Assembly: GCA_003158475.1 (NCBI GenBank) | Contig: PMJR01000016.1 | Span: forward strand, 1-34,763 | Source: Ignavibacteriota bacterium | GTDB lineage: Bacteria; Bacteroidota; Ignavibacteria; UBA10030; UBA6906 | DNA length: 34,763 nucleotides | Direction of reading: 5' to 3' | Part shown: positions 16,184-28,046 of the stretch, piece after piece | Layout of the letters: each line of letters opens with the position of its first letter | Position numbering within the stretch: the stretch's first letter is position 1 | Notes under the pieces: model-generated | Seen by the model: only the letters and a program-made list of their open reading frames with translations | Told to the model about the DNA's origin: nothing | Databases searched by the model: none | Position numbers and translations under genes: made by a program

Positions 16184-19100
16184 TCACTTAATCACCGCGA
16201 ACTTGCCGAGTTTTTCTTCTCCGGTGACATTGGATTTTACATCGTACACGTATATCCCAGCGGCGATCTCCAAGCCTTCCTTCGTCAGCATGTCCCACTG
16301 CACAGTGCCGTTGTCCGGCGGATTGTTGACATCGATCTGACGGACGAAAACGCCGCTCGATGTGAAGATCTTGATGCTGCATCCTGCAGGGATGTGTGTG
16401 AAGAGCAACACCCTCCTCTGGTTCAGCCCCTGGTTGCTGATGTACTGTTCCATGGTGTTTGTGACGAGGTACGGGTTGGGGACAACCTTGATTCGTTTCA
16501 TGTCGCCGCTGAGCTGTAAAGCATTCGCGGTACTCTGCGTGTGCACGGTAAAGGTGATGGAATCATTCAACGCGCTCACGATTTTCAGTCTGTACACATC
16601 TCCCGGCTTCGGCTGTTCGCTCTGCAGTCGCATCCCAAACAGCGTCGCGGGGAAGACCCCCTGATTGGCGATCCGGGACGGGTAGCCTACAAGAACAGTG
16701 TCAATGTCGGGGTCGTAGACACCGTTGCCGTTCGCGTCTTCCACGATAGCGTCGAGCTCTTCAAATCCCCGGAATCCGGCCGGGTCCCGGACATTCTTGT
16801 TGATGATATGAAATGGGAACGACTTCCCAAGCAGTATTTTGTTGGACTGGGCGATCTGGCGGCCATTGGCATCCAGAATCGCGGCAAGGTTTTTGCTGGT
16901 TGTTTTTGACCTGTACGGCGGGTCCACCGTCGTGTCGACAAAGACGATATTGTAGTCGTAGGCATAGTACGGCATGATGATTGAATCGACTTGAATGCCG
17001 ATTGGAGCATTTCCTGTCTGCCACTTGCTGAGTGCTGTGTCCGGAGTCGGAAACGCTGCCTTCGGCTGTATGAAGTACTGAAGCCCGTCGACGACGCTTG
17101 TGGTAATACCGCTGCTTGCAATCCTGGTGTACGGCGTTGTACCGATAGTGGCTTTTTCCCAGTTAGCCTGCAAGCGGCTTGTCGGAGTTTCCGCATAGAG
17201 TAGCGTGTTGCCCGCTGTAATGTCGGAGATGGAATATCCCTTTGTCGTGAAAAATCCCTCCCTCTTCGGACGTACGGCCGGCACAGTCTTCCACGCGACA
17301 ACGGCCGTATCGAACTTCATCGAGTAGACATGATCCGGCTTCACAATATCGGAATTGAAAACCGACGCCGTGATGGTGGCATTCGACTGAATGTCCTGCG
17401 GGTCGGTGATCGTCAGGTTCGGAGGCGTATACCCCGCCGCATTCTGATGCGGTGTCACGATTTGGACGTTCTGTCCAACCCCAATGACGTTTTCGCTTTC
17501 GTCCAGACTGATGATCGTATTGCTCTCCGAGGGAGACATGGAGAGACCCAGCGCCCCGACGCCCTGGATGCCGTAATCATACGCGACGAGCGCGTAATAA
17601 TACGTGCGGCCGTTCTGTACGGTGTTATCCACAAAATAGTGTCGGAGGCCGGTATCGTCACCAAGATAGTATTCGAGTCCGTTGACCGAAGTGAAACTCA
17701 CGAACCCCTTGATGGAATCAACGAGGTCGCACTGAAAAATCGGCAGCTTGCCCGCGGGGTTGCCATACCCATCGCGAAGAACCTCGGCATCCTGGAAATG
17801 TTTGTCGGTCGACCTGTAGAGCTTGTAGCCCTCGAAATCGTTTGCGCCCCCGAGGAAGGGCTCGCGCGTGAGTTTGTCGGACCGGTCATCCCACGAGAGG
17901 TACACCTTTCCATCGGCGGCCTTGGCCGTCAACGTGGGAGTGAGCGGCGCCTGGGCAAACCGGTAATCGGATTGATAGACGAGTTCCACCATTCGCAACT
18001 TCTGGTACAGAGAAGGTGCCGGATGATGGTCCGCGACGTCATTCAAACCGATCAAAGGCTCGTACGAATTGACATTGGACATCGAGAGCCTCTCGGTTCT
18101 GCCATGGGCCAATCGGAAAACGCCGGATCCGAATGAGACGTAGAGGTTTGAAGGATTTGGGAACTCCTGAAGCAATCGGGGAGCGGTAAGTGTGTCGTAG
18201 ACATTCTGGTCATTCTTGAGCTGTGCAGCACCTGTCTGTTGAGGATGCGGAAACATCGAGAATGAGGTGAGCCCAAGCATGTCCGATTCATGCACGTCGG
18301 TAATCGCAAAATCCGGCTCTGCGCCGACGCCTTCCAGGAAGTCCGGCCTGTGGTTGCACTCGGTGCCGTCTGCGTCGGGCCCAGTGTAGTTAAGATCGCT
18401 CGGACCAACGCCGTCGAGTCCAACGTCATCGCCGGCATCTTCACCTGGATCGTACCTGCCATTACCGTTCGCGTCTTTGCCATCTCTCCAGTCGCCGTCC
18501 TCGTCACCCGGCCACCAGAGTCCCTGGGCGACCGCCGGGACCTGATCGAGGCTTTTGTAGCCGAAGTATTTGAGGAATTTGCTTGTGTCATGGGAAGCCA
18601 CGAACGCTGCAATGACCGCGGCTTTTCCCTTAATTGGGCCCGAGAATCCTCCCCAGGGACCTTCGGCGGGGTTGTCGCGGCGCTCATCAATCATGCCGTC
18701 GTGGTCATTGTCGATTCCATCGTTCGCCACCCCAGGACTCTCCAGAAAAGCCCAGCCGCTCACAGGCGGCGTTCCACCCCCAAAGCCGGCTCCGCTCAAC
18801 GACCACGTGTAGGTGAATGCTTGAAGTGTGTCAAAGAATCCGATTTGATCTTCTGAGGCGGAGGTGGGGGACTTATTGCCGTTGGCGCAGTCGAGGTAAA
18901 AACCAAACACTCCTCGAGCCAGATCGTAATCGGAAATATTCGAAACGTTGTATTCAAAAAAGACGGCATCGCGGGTTTGTTGATTATTCCACTGATATGC
19001 CCTGACTTCAGCCCGCAAGCCCAGGCCGCCCCAGGCGTCTCCACGCTGAATAGTAATATCGTTCGGGCTGAGATCGCCTACGTAATGGCCCGGGCGTGGA

Positions 19101-19810
19101 TAGAACTGTATTTTCAAAGGAGGCGCCGTCGGATCCTTGGGCAGGAGGTTCTCCTGGTCCTGTGCGTCATTTGCAGCCCAATAGGCTTCCAGGTCGGCAT
19201 ATTTTACTCCTCTGCCAAACCGACCATTCCACTCACCCGGCCACTTCTTCTCCAAACCGCGGGATGGCCATCCACCCGAAGGCCATGAATCAGGACGGTT
19301 GCTGATGGCCGCGTAGTCGCTCAGCCTGTTGAAGTACCCAAACACCGGATAGAATCCCCATTCAATGGATGAGCCCAGCGGCTGATCCATGAAGTTGGGC
19401 TGAATGGAAGAACTTTGCGCACACCACAAGGTATCCAGCAGCCCCTGGCTTCCGAGAGACTGGATGTCCGCTTCATCCGTAATCGGAATGGAATCGAAGG
19501 GACATGCGGGACACTTCTTGATAAATACCATATTGCCGACGATGAGATTGAAGCTGTCGAACGTGTTCAGTCCGGTGGCGTCATTCGGCCAGAGAGAGAC
19601 GAGCGGACTTGGCCACCCCCCGAAAGAGACTTTATTGCTGATCTGGAGGGAGACCCTGTTGCCGTTCATCAATCCCAACCGGGAAGCGCTGGGATCGCCC
19701 GCCTCATCCGTCGGTCCTTCATATGGTCTGCTTTGAGCATTCAGATCCGCTACCATGATCGGAATGAGCGCTATCAGCAGAGCCTTAATAGTGGAATTGC
19801 GAAAGAGCAT
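16184..19810 (-). CDS. large secreted protein with fibronectin-like domain and FlgD-like C-terminus
   Basis: A 1208-aa exported protein of unknown function. The ATG at 19810 has AAGGAG six bases upstream and opens a signal peptide (MLFRNSTIKALLIAL to LNAQS); an upstream in-frame ATG at 19858 would overlap the previous gene. Visible features are Asp-rich calcium-type loops (DNDHDGMIDE near 370 and DGKDANGNGRYDPGEDAGDD near 450, thrombospondin type 3 or EF-hand-like), a fibronectin type III-like domain (about 640-780: GKVYLSWDDRSD, FEGYKLYRST, YYYALVAYDYG), a beta-rich region, and a C-terminal domain beginning IKVVPNPYLV. It ends with IKIFTSSGVFVRQIDV, GTVQWDML, GIYVYDVKS and KFAVIK, which resembles FlgD Ig and T9SS sorting domains without the NPFNP core. 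It lies 25 bp after the TonB-dependent receptor stop and is surely cotranscribed, so it may sit on the receptor as a surface partner, in the way SusD sits on SusC. That role is inference only. Confidence 0.8.
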   Translation of the reverse strand: MLFRNSTIKALLIALIPIMVADLNAQSRPYEGPTDEAGDPSASRLGLMNGNRVSLQISNKVSFGGWPSPLVSLWPNDATGLNTFDSFNLIVGNMVFIKKCPACPFDSIPITDEADIQSLGSQGLLDTLWCAQSSSIQPNFMDQPLGSSIEWGFYPVFGYFNRLSDYAAISNRPDSWPSGGWPSRGLEKKWPGEWNGRFGRGVKYADLEAYWAANDAQDQENLLPKDPTAPPLKIQFYPRPGHYVGDLSPNDITIQRGDAWGGLGLRAEVRAYQWNNQQTRDAVFFEYNVSNISDYDLARGVFGFYLDCANGNKSPTSASEDQIGFFDTLQAFTYTWSLSGAGFGGGTPPVSGWAFLESPGVANDGIDNDHDGMIDERRDNPAEGPWGGFSGPIKGKAAVIAAFVASHDTSKFLKYFGYKSLDQVPAVAQGLWWPGDEDGDWRDGKDANGNGRYDPGEDAGDDVGLDGVGPSDLNYTGPDADGTECNHRPDFLEGVGAEPDFAITDVHESDMLGLTSFSMFPHPQQTGAAQLKNDQNVYDTLTAPRLLQEFPNPSNLYVSFGSGVFRLAHGRTERLSMSNVNSYEPLIGLNDVADHHPAPSLYQKLRMVELVYQSDYRFAQAPLTPTLTAKAADGKVYLSWDDRSDKLTREPFLGGANDFEGYKLYRSTDKHFQDAEVLRDGYGNPAGKLPIFQCDLVDSIKGFVSFTSVNGLEYYLGDDTGLRHYFVDNTVQNGRTYYYALVAYDYGIQGVGALGLSMSPSESNTIISLDESENVIGVGQNVQIVTPHQNAAGYTPPNLTITDPQDIQSNATITASVFNSDIVKPDHVYSMKFDTAVVAWKTVPAVRPKREGFFTTKGYSISDITAGNTLLYAETPTSRLQANWEKATIGTTPYTRIASSGITTSVVDGLQYFIQPKAAFPTPDTALSKWQTGNAPIGIQVDSIIMPYYAYDYNIVFVDTTVDPPYRSKTTSKNLAAILDANGRQIAQSNKILLGKSFPFHIINKNVRDPAGFRGFEELDAIVEDANGNGVYDPDIDTVLVGYPSRIANQGVFPATLFGMRLQSEQPKPGDVYRLKIVSALNDSITFTVHTQSTANALQLSGDMKRIKVVPNPYLVTNTMEQYISNQGLNQRRVLLFTHIPAGCSIKIFTSSGVFVRQIDVNNPPDNGTVQWDMLTKEGLEIAAGIYVYDVKSNVTGEEKLGKFAVIK

Positions 19811-19835
19811 GATACTCTCCTTTTCGACTATGGTA

Positions 19836-22646
19836 CTAGAACATGACCTCGAAGCCAACCTTGATGGAGCGGGGGTTGGTGAATGAGTTCGGGTCGTTAA
19901 TCCAGTCGTAAATCGTACTGAAGTTGCTTGTGTACTTTGCTATATCCGTTGGAAGAAGGATCTGCTGGTTGGCTCTCCCGGTTGTCGTGTTAACCGCCAC
20001 CTCGTTGAGTGCATCAAACAGATTATAGACGAGGAGCGTGAGCCGTGTTCTGGCCGGTCCAAACGACCAGAGATTTACATAGGCGTTGAGGTCGACTGAA
20101 AAGAGTGTGGGTCTTGTCGCATCGTTCGGCTGCGGGGTCACGAGCGCCTGCTGGCTGGTGGCAAGCGGGACCCAACCGTACGGCGTGCCGCTGTCGAAAT
20201 GGCCTGTGATGGAACCACCGAACTCCTTGTGTGCGTAGGCGAGGGATGCGTTCAGCGTATGCCGCTGATCCCAGTCCATGGGGATGAGCACGTTGACTGG
20301 ATCGAGCTTCGATCCCTCGCGGGTAAAAGTGTAGGTTGGACTGTTCGCGTTGCCGCGTGTATATTGAAGAGTGTAATTCACGGAAGCGGAAAACTCGCCC
20401 GCGAGATAATCGTACTTGAGCTCCAATCCCCGCGCGTTCCCATAATCCTTGTTGCTGTACAATCCGTAGTGGATGGCATTAAATGTCTCCACTGTTACGG
20501 CGCTCAGCAAATCATAGATATCCCTGTAAAACACCGCGACCTCGCAACTCATATGCGGATTCAGCTGTTGCCACAGGCCGGCCTCGTACTGAATCGTTTT
20601 CTGTGGTTTCACGAGCGGATTGCCCATAACCGTCTGGTAATCGCCGAGCACGGTGTGCCAATAATCCGTGTACAATGCGTACAACGGCGGCATCTGGAAA
20701 AAATGCCCGTAGGAGAACCTGAGCAGCGCCGTCTCGGCCAGTTTGTACGAGATGCCGAACCTGGGGCTGAGTTGCCGCTTCGCGGGTGCTCTGAGGTACA
20801 CGCTCATCTTCTCCGGGTTGTCCGGATATGTAAGGGCATTTGACGGATTTCGAAGCTCGGAAGGATACGATGCGTTTGGGACGAAGCAATCGTACCGCAG
20901 GCCGGCATTGATGACCATATAATCGAACTCCATCTTGTCCTGCACGTAGGCGGAGTATTCCAGAGGCTTCACTACGTAGATGTCCGCACCTGAGGTTATC
21001 CCGGTGGGGAGGGAAGGCTTGTAGTAAAGATATGTTCTCATGCCGGTTACCGGGTCGTCATAAGAGCGGCTCTCATCACTGCCGTACGAATTGAGCACGG
21101 TCGTGTTGAATCGGTGAATGCCGTGCTTTGTATAGTCGAACCCGGACTTGATAGTATGTTGCTTGGTCGCCTGCCACGTTCCGTCAATCTTAAGATTGTA
21201 GTCCTCGATCCAATTCTGACTCCATGATTTGTCCTGACCTCCGGTGGAAAAGCCCGGGTTGTACGATGTCTGGGCGGCATACTGATCGGACACATACGCA
21301 TAGACAGGCAGTCCGACCCTGTTGATGCTGTCTCCCCCCGCAACGTTCTTCAGCGTCTGCATCGGGTTTTCGAACAGGTAGTAGGCGCTCCAGTTCTTGA
21401 TGTAGCTGGCCGAGGCTTCGTAGAAAAGGGAGTTCGAAAGAGTGTGGTTCAATTTGGCTGAAAGAAGCTGGGAAGTTGAATAGTTCGTCGGTACTCCTTC
21501 CGGGTTGAACTCGTAGAAGTGATTGTAACTCTTCCCTTTGTAGTAATTGTACGTATAGTCGACCGAAGCACGAATCTCCTGAAGGGGATTCAAGGAAAGC
21601 TTGCCGTACGCGGTGGCTGTGGTATTGTATTCCATCGCCACGACTGCATTGTCCCCTGTGTGATCCGAATGCCACGCGGTGGGGTCCGCGGAGGGCCAGT
21701 TGCTGTAGTTGTTGGGCATGAAGCGTCTGATCCCGTTGCGCGCGCCAACATTGTCCTGATACCGTCCGTTGACGAGGAATGAGAGGTCATCCTTAATAAC
21801 CGGCCCCTCGAGAAAGAGCTGATAATCTTTGCTCCGGGGTACATCCTGAAGATTCGAAACGGTAAGACCGGTGAAATTGTACGTGTGCGGCGTAGCAAAA
21901 TTGCTCGCACTGATGGATCCGGAACCCCGGAACTCATTGCCTCCATTTTTTGTGACGTTGTTCACGACGCCGCTCATCGCGTTGCCATACTCGGCGTTGA
22001 ATGTCCCCGTAATGACCTCGACCTCCGAGATGGCGTCATTTTCCACATTGACCGATCGTCCAAGGGCGTATGCGTCCTGCACCTTGATACCATTGAGAAG
22101 ATACGCCACTTCGTCCGCGCGCCCGCCACGGAAATGACCGCGCACCACGCCTGCCTGCAGCGCCACCACCTGATCGACATTCTCCACGGGCAGCGCCTTT
22201 ATTTGATCGGACGTGATATTTCTGACCGAGCTGGTCTGGTCCTTTTTTTGCTCGATGAGGGGTGCGGTGACGACGACCTCCTGCCCTTCGATGACACGCT
22301 CTGACAGTCTAAAATCCGCCACCGTTGTCCTGTTGACCGACACTACAAGAGATTGCATAACCACCGGTTCGTACCCGATCAAGGTGGCGCGCAATCGGTA
22401 TGTCCCCGGGGGAATGTTGAGGATGTAATACTCGCCGGCCTTATCGGTCACGGCACCGAGGCTTGTCCCGACGACCATGACATTCACCGCAATCAGGGGG
22501 TCGCCGGATTTCCTGTCGAGGATTTTGCCGGAAAGTTTCCCCGTTGTCTGGGCAACACCCTCTGTCGCAAGCAAGGAAAGGAGAACCACCACGATGCTCC
22601 ACCCTCGTGCTTTCGATCGCCATGTGAATCGGTTTTCTGTTGGCAT
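19836..22646 (-). CDS. TonB-dependent receptor with carboxypeptidase-regulatory-like N-terminal domain
   Basis: A 936-aa outer-membrane receptor. The ATG at 22646 gives a signal peptide (SIVVVLLSLLATEGVAQ); a longer frame to 22772 lacks one at its start. Residues about 34-115 form a CarboxypepD_reg-like domain (GKLSGKILDRKSGDPLIAVN, GEYYILNIPPGTYRLRATLIGY). The plug domain follows with ITSDQIKALPVENVDQVVAL, HFRGGRADEVAYLLNGI, EVEVITGTFNAEYGNAMSGVVN and VTKNGGN, then a long barrel ending in an aromatic residue (KVGFEVMF). This is the style of large Bacteroidota/Ignavibacteria receptors that import oligosaccharides, peptides or metal complexes with TonB energy. No SusD-like lipoprotein follows; instead the next genes are the 1208-aa secreted protein, a PorV-like protein and a parvulin lipoprotein. 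The cargo is unknown; hemicellulose oligosaccharides are suggested only by the neighbours. A perfect 16-bp palindrome lies 25 bases before the start codon. Confidence 0.93.
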   Translation of the reverse strand: MPTENRFTWRSKARGWSIVVVLLSLLATEGVAQTTGKLSGKILDRKSGDPLIAVNVMVVGTSLGAVTDKAGEYYILNIPPGTYRLRATLIGYEPVVMQSLVVSVNRTTVADFRLSERVIEGQEVVVTAPLIEQKKDQTSSVRNITSDQIKALPVENVDQVVALQAGVVRGHFRGGRADEVAYLLNGIKVQDAYALGRSVNVENDAISEVEVITGTFNAEYGNAMSGVVNNVTKNGGNEFRGSGSISASNFATPHTYNFTGLTVSNLQDVPRSKDYQLFLEGPVIKDDLSFLVNGRYQDNVGARNGIRRFMPNNYSNWPSADPTAWHSDHTGDNAVVAMEYNTTATAYGKLSLNPLQEIRASVDYTYNYYKGKSYNHFYEFNPEGVPTNYSTSQLLSAKLNHTLSNSLFYEASASYIKNWSAYYLFENPMQTLKNVAGGDSINRVGLPVYAYVSDQYAAQTSYNPGFSTGGQDKSWSQNWIEDYNLKIDGTWQATKQHTIKSGFDYTKHGIHRFNTTVLNSYGSDESRSYDDPVTGMRTYLYYKPSLPTGITSGADIYVVKPLEYSAYVQDKMEFDYMVINAGLRYDCFVPNASYPSELRNPSNALTYPDNPEKMSVYLRAPAKRQLSPRFGISYKLAETALLRFSYGHFFQMPPLYALYTDYWHTVLGDYQTVMGNPLVKPQKTIQYEAGLWQQLNPHMSCEVAVFYRDIYDLLSAVTVETFNAIHYGLYSNKDYGNARGLELKYDYLAGEFSASVNYTLQYTRGNANSPTYTFTREGSKLDPVNVLIPMDWDQRHTLNASLAYAHKEFGGSITGHFDSGTPYGWVPLATSQQALVTPQPNDATRPTLFSVDLNAYVNLWSFGPARTRLTLLVYNLFDALNEVAVNTTTGRANQQILLPTDIAKYTSNFSTIYDWINDPNSFTNPRSIKVGFEVMF

Positions 22647-25250: not shown

Positions 25251-27960
25251 TTACTTGATCAGCACCAAATGCTTCGTCTGTGTAAAACCTTCCGTTTGCA
25301 GTCTGTAATAGTATATACCGCTCGACAAGTGGGCAGCATCGAGAGTCACGGAGTAATCCCCGGCATTTTGATGACTGTTCACAAGCGTCTCGATCTCCTT
25401 TCCCAGGACATCGTAGATCCGTAACGTCACCTGCGCAGCAACCGGCAACCGGTAGCTGATCACTGTTGTCGGGTTGAAAGGATTAGGAAAATTCTGGCGG
25501 AGAAAATAATCGCGCTCCGGGTACGATGATCGTTGAACGGTTGTGGTGCCGGATTGCCGAAAGTCCACCCTGTCCGGAACAACCCAGGAGTTGGTGCTGC
25601 TTGCATTCTTTGTGCCGGTCACCCGGATTTTGAAGAGATGATCGCCGGGCGGGAGAACGGAGCTCGTCCACATCAACTGGTTTCCCATGCGGGTTGCGGC
25701 GTAGAAATCGACGAGGGTTTCACTGCCGCCATCGATCGAAATGGCGCCGATGCCATGCCCGGGATCTTCGACGCCGTAGAATCGTATCTGAGTCCCGTTG
25801 AATTCGACTGCCGCCTCGTCATCGGTTGTGTTGTCCCATGAATTGCGTCTGGTCATAGAGATCCGCGCCGCATCCCGTGCAGTGTGACCATCCCGAGCCA
25901 GACGTACGAGAACGAAGTCGAACCCGCTCCCCATCATGGCGTCGTCAATGGTGGTCCAATCGCTTCCCGCAGTCTTGCATGCACGAAGAAATTGTCGAAT
26001 TCCGCCTGTTGCCATTTGCTCACAAGCAACCCCACTTGGCCGGATGCATAGGTACCGTCATTTGACCGATCGTTGCCAACACAGAATCCACAAATGCCTG
26101 GACGGTGTCGGCATTGAAGCTGAGTGAAATTTTGTGCCAGCTGTTCAATCCTATTGTCGCCGTCCCCGCTCCAAGCTGCGTATCGACTCCCCCTGCGGTC
26201 TCCTTGAACAGGCTCCACGTTCCATTGCTCGTCACACGCAGGTGATAACCCTGTGAGGCGCCGGGAGACGATTGCGATTGCGTCCCTAGTCGGCCGATCA
26301 GATCAACGTAGCCAGTTTGCTCCAGCAACACATCGGTGCTCACCGAGTAGTTGGACCATCCCGGATCTCCTACAACGGCCAGCGGCGGTGTTGGAGAGCC
26401 GCCGGGCCACTCTAGAGGAGCCAGATTGATCATCTGCCGCAGGCACCGGCCGGTGCGTCCGCCATGGCAGCTGTCAACCTCGAATGCGCCTTGGATTGCA
26501 TCAAAGTAGCTTGGGATTGCTCCGATGGCATACTGGTCAAAATTCTCAGTGTACGGCAGGCCCATCGTTGACGGCGATGGAGGGGAGGTTGTCCCTTTCC
26601 CCTGACCTGTCGTCGTGCTGATCGTATACACAAAACCCGGCTGAAGGGTGACGTTAAATCTCCCTCCGACCGGGAGAATATCGCTGAGGTGAACAAAGAA
26701 GTCGTTGGAATTTGGCGAATTGACATTTGAAGCCCACACATGGACCGTGTCAGTGGAAAGGCCTCCTACGACGGCAAACGTGACAGTCTGCGGTGTCGCG
26801 GCGTCCATCGTTTCTACGATCGTGCTATAATCCTTTGCATTGGTCGACTTTAGCGTCACATAGCTGCCGTTCGTTCGGACCCCCCCCAAATACCCGCAGG
26901 AGACATCCACATAATGCCAGCCGACCTCCGCAAATTGGGCGGTGTGTGCCATAACCCAGATGCTCTTTGCGACATAGTAATACCCGGACCACGGTTGATC
27001 GGCAAGCATGAGCCCACACCCGTAATAGGGGAGCGTGCGATACCATGCTGCGATGAGGCTCCAATTGATATACGCGGTCATCCTGCTGTCGATATAGTCC
27101 CGGTTCAGCGCGCGGGCAAGGGCTGTTGCGCCGGCATCGTAGTTTTGGGACCCGTGTTCGCTTCCCCATACGGGAATGCCCAGACCTTCCGCGACTGAAG
27201 TGTAGGTATTGTCGGAACAGTTCTGTTCTCCTGAAAGATAGCCGCATGGATAGTGGACACCCATGATGTCCACAGCAGCCTTGAATGCCGCATCGCTTGA
27301 CAAATCACCCGCGATGTTCCACCCATTGTCCGCCGCCACCACCTTCGTCGTCAAGCCATTGTTCAGCAGCGCCGTCTTCAGGTTTTCATACCACGTCTTG
27401 TCCCAGCCTGATTCGTTCCACCCGCCGATGTAGTCGATATGAAGATCATGGTCTGATTGCGCGTGCTTGATCCAACTTATGATATAGTTGATATTATCCT
27501 GTGACCAGAATCCGCCCGTAAACCATCCCGGTGAACCCCACTCCAGGCCATAGAGTTTGATATTCGGGTTCCGTGATTTCGCCTGCTCCATCAGCCACCA
27601 CTCATATCCACGAGTGAAATTCGAGTCGGTCCGTGAGCGCATGTGGCTCGCCTCGGCCCCGTTGGTGCTATTGGCATCGCCGCCGATCTCCACTTTCAAT
27701 ATTTGCAGGCTGGCGCCATAATGAGGCAGAAAGAGGTAGTCCAATATCTCATCCCGCTGCTGTGCCGGATAATCCCACAGCAAGCGCGATGTCCCGCCAC
27801 CACCACTCAAGCCCCCAATCCCGTCAAAAGCTCGACCGGAACCCGTGCCCGAGATAACGATGGTCGTGCCCTGCGCCATCGCCTGTGGAATGGCAATGGG
27901 GAGCAGCTGCATACTCATGAATGGCAGCAACACTGCCATGGCTCTCGTGCTATGGTTCAT
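25251..27960 (-). pseudogene. GH59 beta-galactosidase (galactocerebrosidase type), broken by clustered frameshifts
   Basis: The first half (27960 to 26020) has a signal peptide (MNHSTRAMAV to AMAQG) and a clear GH59 domain: FDGIGGLSGGGGTSRLLWDY, HYGASLQILKVEIGGD, RGYEWWLMEQAK. The acid/base Glu is in IGGWNESGW (near 183) and the nucleophile in VWGSEHGSQ (near 268), so the catalytic part is intact. A lectin-like domain follows and is cut at GCL-stop (26020). Its missing end, SNDGTYASGQVGLLVSKWQQ and AEFDNFFV, lies in another frame (about 26055-25980). The next domain resumes in a third frame (TAGSDWTTIDDAMMGSG), jumps again (SGSGWSHCTGCGADLYDQT, about 25912-25846) and returns (SWDNTTDDEAAVEFNGTQI) to run to the T9SS sorting domain (QNFPNPFNPTTVISYRLPV). 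About three single-base losses and one gain within 215 bp explain this. As read, the enzyme would be made without its last domains and sorting signal. It could be decay or an assembly fault. The intact enzyme would release terminal beta-galactose. Confidence 0.87.
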
Positions 27961-28046
27961 AGCGACCCCGCCTCTCAATCGCCGCTCCCACGAATGCATC
28001 CTGCGATAGAACATGCCGCGCATCATTTCTCATGAGCAACAGGTCC

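Follow-up and report, generated by a model that had tools for sequence, protein, structure and literature searches.

The GH59 galactocerebrosidase family, represented by the structure 4ccc, combines catalytic, middle and lectin domains with two motif glutamates that presumably serve as acid/base and nucleophile. Short-read metagenome assemblies are known to contain contigs that are chimeric between species and gaps that were filled wrongly. We analysed a 34,763-nucleotide stretch of an Ignavibacteriota genome (the window), in which a minus-strand GH59 gene (28,026 to 25,251) has the three domains and both motif glutamates in common with the family. It differs from the family in adding ~150 residues without a Pfam match followed by a T9SS sorting tail, and in having a frame that is broken, as deposited, into five segments (Table 1).

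Results

Pfam analysis showed that the 668-codon first frame contains the catalytic, middle and lectin domains (PF02057, PF17387 and PF21708), with the catalytic domain scoring 373.6 bits against a curated cut-off of 27. The glutamates of the WNE and SE motifs align with glutamates in 4ccc. A 254-codon frame downstream carries the sorting tail (Por_Secre_tail). Six-frame translation gave the frame order 0, 2, 1, 0, 1 on the minus strand from ~26,071 to 25,845, and the frame of the front part continues to a stop at 26,020, shortly past the first break. As deposited, the gene cannot encode one protein.

Table 1. Positions in the window of the GH59 frame segments, the inserted bases and the substitution-free block
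Feature	Position	Strand	Basis or detail
Front GH59 part: signal-like start, the catalytic and middle domains, most of the lectin domain	26072..28026	-	one frame
Second frame segment: closing part of the lectin domain	25977..26062	-	six-frame translation and alignment
Third frame segment: start of the Pfam-less domain after the lectin domain	25914..25974	-	translation and alignment
Fourth frame segment: within the Pfam-less domain	25846..25900	-	translation and alignment
Last frame segment: remainder of the Pfam-less domain and T9SS tail (Por_Secre_tail)	25251..25844	-	translation, Pfam
Insertion cluster: seven extra bases at six sites, without deletions	25845..26071	-	alignment to the fen_1260 gene (L007, genome G006)
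Block identical to the fen_1260 gene apart from inserted bases	25573..26124	-	552 alignment columns, 0 substitutions

A scan of genome contigs identified the Ignavibacteriae MAG fen_1260 (G006) as the source of the closest relative (L007), on contig C57 of 159,802 bases. This relative has a single 906-codon open frame and also contains the ~150-residue Pfam-less stretch and the T9SS tail. The next three relatives (L008, L009 and L010) are single frames of 889, 917 and 906 codons that aligned through to the last residue, and in all four the alignment extends through the sorting tail. Because all four are single open frames, the natural form is, as judged from these relatives, one gene. The first-pass annotation had named a natural encoding of the homologues as two separate genes as the finding that would speak against its view; the four closest relatives, at 889–917 codons, are not encoded in that way, and a two-gene design was rejected on the same ground.

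Among 21 genomes of the family, including its own, the 668-codon protein was matched only in its own genome and in fen_1260, which belongs to another genus. When the substitution-free block was used as a query against 391 genomes of the class, we obtained three matches: its own genome, fen_1260 and a weak one (69%) in G122. No second copy of the gene that could be the source of the block was found in its own genome, where the other matches were short, 70–74% identical and fell at the end of the query that carries the sorting tail. A search of a plasmid collection for the block gave no match, and a plasmid source was rejected for that reason.

Alignment to the intact relative showed that the cluster consists of insertions only, with 0 deletions and 0 substitutions. 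The first-pass annotation had described four frameshifts within 25,840–26,062 and had proposed aligning homologues to place the indels, an approach that yielded the six sites and seven extra bases of Table 1. Four changes are indeed visible, and the peptides it named lie in frames 0, 2, 1, 0, 1; the count itself rises to six by alignment. Two pairs of sites are only 8 and 12 bases apart, so each close pair resembles a single change by eye and the six sites show as four. The cluster lies in the span given, with the first two sites a few bases outside it. Its further statement that the other long genes of the window are unbroken was borne out, since all of them read in one frame.

In window alignments of at least 80% identity, these six sites are the only uncompensated frame-breaking indels within genes and away from gene ends; the remaining frame-breaking indels are four at gene ends and two pairs whose members compensate each other. 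The cluster is therefore not due to chance. Judged by the alignment, insertions free of any substitution or deletion do not look like mutation. Five of the six sites abut a fourfold-degenerate third codon position, compared to 33% of the slots in the block (P = 0.017, post hoc). This placement is what would be expected if a gap-filling or consensus step had written out both of two alleles at synonymous sites; extra bases do not arise by themselves when an assembly simply changes from one graph path to another. We also considered flow-type sequencing error as the source of the inserted letters, which by reasoning is a poor fit.

A coding-frame HMM (81 sources) did not flag the switches in the window directly. 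It bridged them with a short noncoding state (25,978–26,053) and so gives no measure of the rarity of such clusters; it reported 48 switches elsewhere. A protein-based frameshift scan, which has low sensitivity for short segments, compared the fetched parts of the window's own genome (G000) and of fen_1260. It kept 13 events in the former, of which four lie 0–9 bases from NN joins, two lie in the anomalous patch and seven lie elsewhere.

All six insertion sites fall inside the 552-base block. Substitutions affect ~11% of the columns in the gene and its near surroundings, compared to none in the block, and the naive independent-sites probability of such a run is 2e-29. The runner-up substitution-free run in the syntenic locus (~28 kb), where mostly 10–15% of positions differ, is 66 columns. 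We extended the comparison beyond the window to 80 more contigs of its own genome, taking at most the initial 20 kb of each, giving together with the window 1,084,725 of 3,745,098 bases against 715,957 bases of fen_1260. The second-longest run in this sample was 90 columns, in 141,532 aligned columns (102 alignments of at least 300 columns, shorter ones dropped), and the ~1.08 of 3.75 Mb compared contained no other such patch. The block sits mid-contig in both genomes, and no N adjoins it in the window.

At fourfold-degenerate sites of the gene, 0 of 90 differ inside the block, compared to 92 of 371 outside it, which rules out purifying selection as the cause of the identity. Because sites without protein constraint are identical, the block DNAs of the window and fen_1260 share, on the sequence evidence, a very recent source, whether in a cell or in a computer. 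Both anomalies coincide at one spot, so a single cause very likely lies behind the clustered frame breaks and the identity to the other species.

The GH59 gene is part of a carbohydrate-degradation locus (window 6172–34763) that includes two nearby GH2 genes, CotH, a TonB receptor and sorting-tail proteins. Beside the TonB-dependent receptor gene lies a 1,224-codon frame (window 16184–19858) without a Pfam match at E 0.01. Over ~28 kb the locus is syntenic with contigs C33 and C57 of fen_1260, mostly at 83–90% identity with one 70% stretch, compared to 65–80% for the bulk of the DNA aligned elsewhere between the two genomes. Three genomes of the same genus gave only weak matches over most of the locus. 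Because locus identity exceeds the genome background and same-genus matches are weak, these data suggest that the locus may have been transferred horizontally between lineages.

We assessed the assemblies for marks of their construction. Of the N runs in 80 loci of the window's own genome (L118–L197, 1.05 Mb; runs of at least 2,000 set aside), 48 of 52 were exactly two N long, as were 77 of 91 in 43 loci of fen_1260 (two partly overlapping). Two-N runs occurred in 5 of 12 short loci examined from G008–G010, compared to 0 of 79 other genome-contig loci; being common to the group and absent from those 79, they suggest one pipeline for the group. At least four of the two-N joins lie 0–9 bases from a mid-gene frame change, and split genes at such joins should therefore not be taken as pseudogenes.

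Exact overlaps between contig ends measured 23 bases in two pairs of fen_1260 contigs and 20 bases in two pairs from the window's own genome, where one further pair shared 15 bases and another 95. The NN joins and the 20- and 23-base overlaps fit short-word assembly. The junction of C33 and C57 is such a 23-base overlap, just downstream of the fen_1260 GH59 gene (window ~25200), so that assembly also breaks near the block. At a word length of 21, the two species have 261 separate runs in common over window 4,798–34,763, and, had they been assembled together, their graph paths could cross at many points.

The label fen_1260 presumably refers to the Stordalen site, and from the NN marks we infer a shared project of origin for the window's genome and fen_1260. 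The Stordalen bulk soil metagenomes are described as assembled by habitat with the CLC de novo assembler (PMC6786970). The roundup mode of FinishM is described as contig scaffolding and gap filling via a de Bruijn graph (PMC4932879). Our literature search returned no paper joining chimeric metagenome-assembled sequence, gap filling, frameshifts and indels.

Discussion

Our data favor, with reasonable though not high confidence, the view that metagenome assembly produced the frameshifts as an artefact, through a patch that merged two related species. Two related bacteria with the same ~28 kb locus could be tangled by short-word assembly at any common word. Some 552 bases of the GH59 gene would then come from the second species, or from a path in which the two were merged. 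Where alternative alleles were set down side by side, merging would leave the extra bases, mostly beside fourfold-degenerate third codon positions. We infer that both species were present in one assembly, that the cause lies at the level of reads and that both alleles were written. The first-pass annotation had suggested an assembly fault or very recent decay. The fault half is supported by the presence of insertions only and by a block far closer to the other species than its flanks are; very recent decay is not supported, as decay does not make synonymous sites identical to those of another species.

The next reading in our ranking, possible but on balance rather unlikely, is that ~550 bases truly recombined between the lineages in recent time and that reads then collapsed, with real differences written as insertions; the block would be biology and only the frameshifts artefact. 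The block without substitutions speaks for this reading too, as does the SNP-like placement of the inserted bases. Exchange is also plausible for a locus that is more similar between the lineages (86–90%) than most of their other aligned DNA (65–80%) and that three genomes of the genus lacked in our searches. This account nevertheless requires two events at one spot, and neither the locus nor the sampled genome parts contain a further tract. An assembly patch is thus most likely, followed by a recombination tract with collapsed reads. Under either, the frameshifts are artefacts, and the real organism probably encodes a single unbroken GH59 enzyme that is secreted and ends in a T9SS tail.

True recombination followed by real insertions, amounting to recent decay at the domain junction, would account for a gene that as given cannot make a single protein. 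We regard it as very improbable, because it must explain seven insertions alongside 0 substitutions and 0 deletions in 545 compared sites, in a window whose other long genes are intact. The usual mark of decay, substitutions and deletions beside insertions, is absent from the block. Fainter still is the prospect that a very recent ~550-base import from another genus, unchanged so far at all synonymous sites and with real insertions at the junction, has turned a tailed, exported GH59 into a tail-less one. Programmed recoding, or two naturally separate genes, could also set the sorting tail apart from the enzyme; the downstream frame with its tail would fit this reading, which we consider next to negligible. 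The closest relatives are single frames in four of four cases, all six sites within 227 bases would need recoding, and the start of the 254-codon frame reads unlike the protein of the relatives.

The biological weight of this finding is small, and its use is as a quality check. A merged patch in a MAG can be recognised by clustered insertions within sequence that suddenly matches another species perfectly. Such a patch would mislead gene catalogues, which would list a GH59 without its tail and a sorting-tail protein on its own, and would likewise mislead scans for interspecies recombination. Like known interspecies chimeric contigs, the window has a block that abruptly matches another species between diverged homologous flanks, together with the marks of short-word assembly; unlike plain chimeric contigs, its block also carries extra bases.
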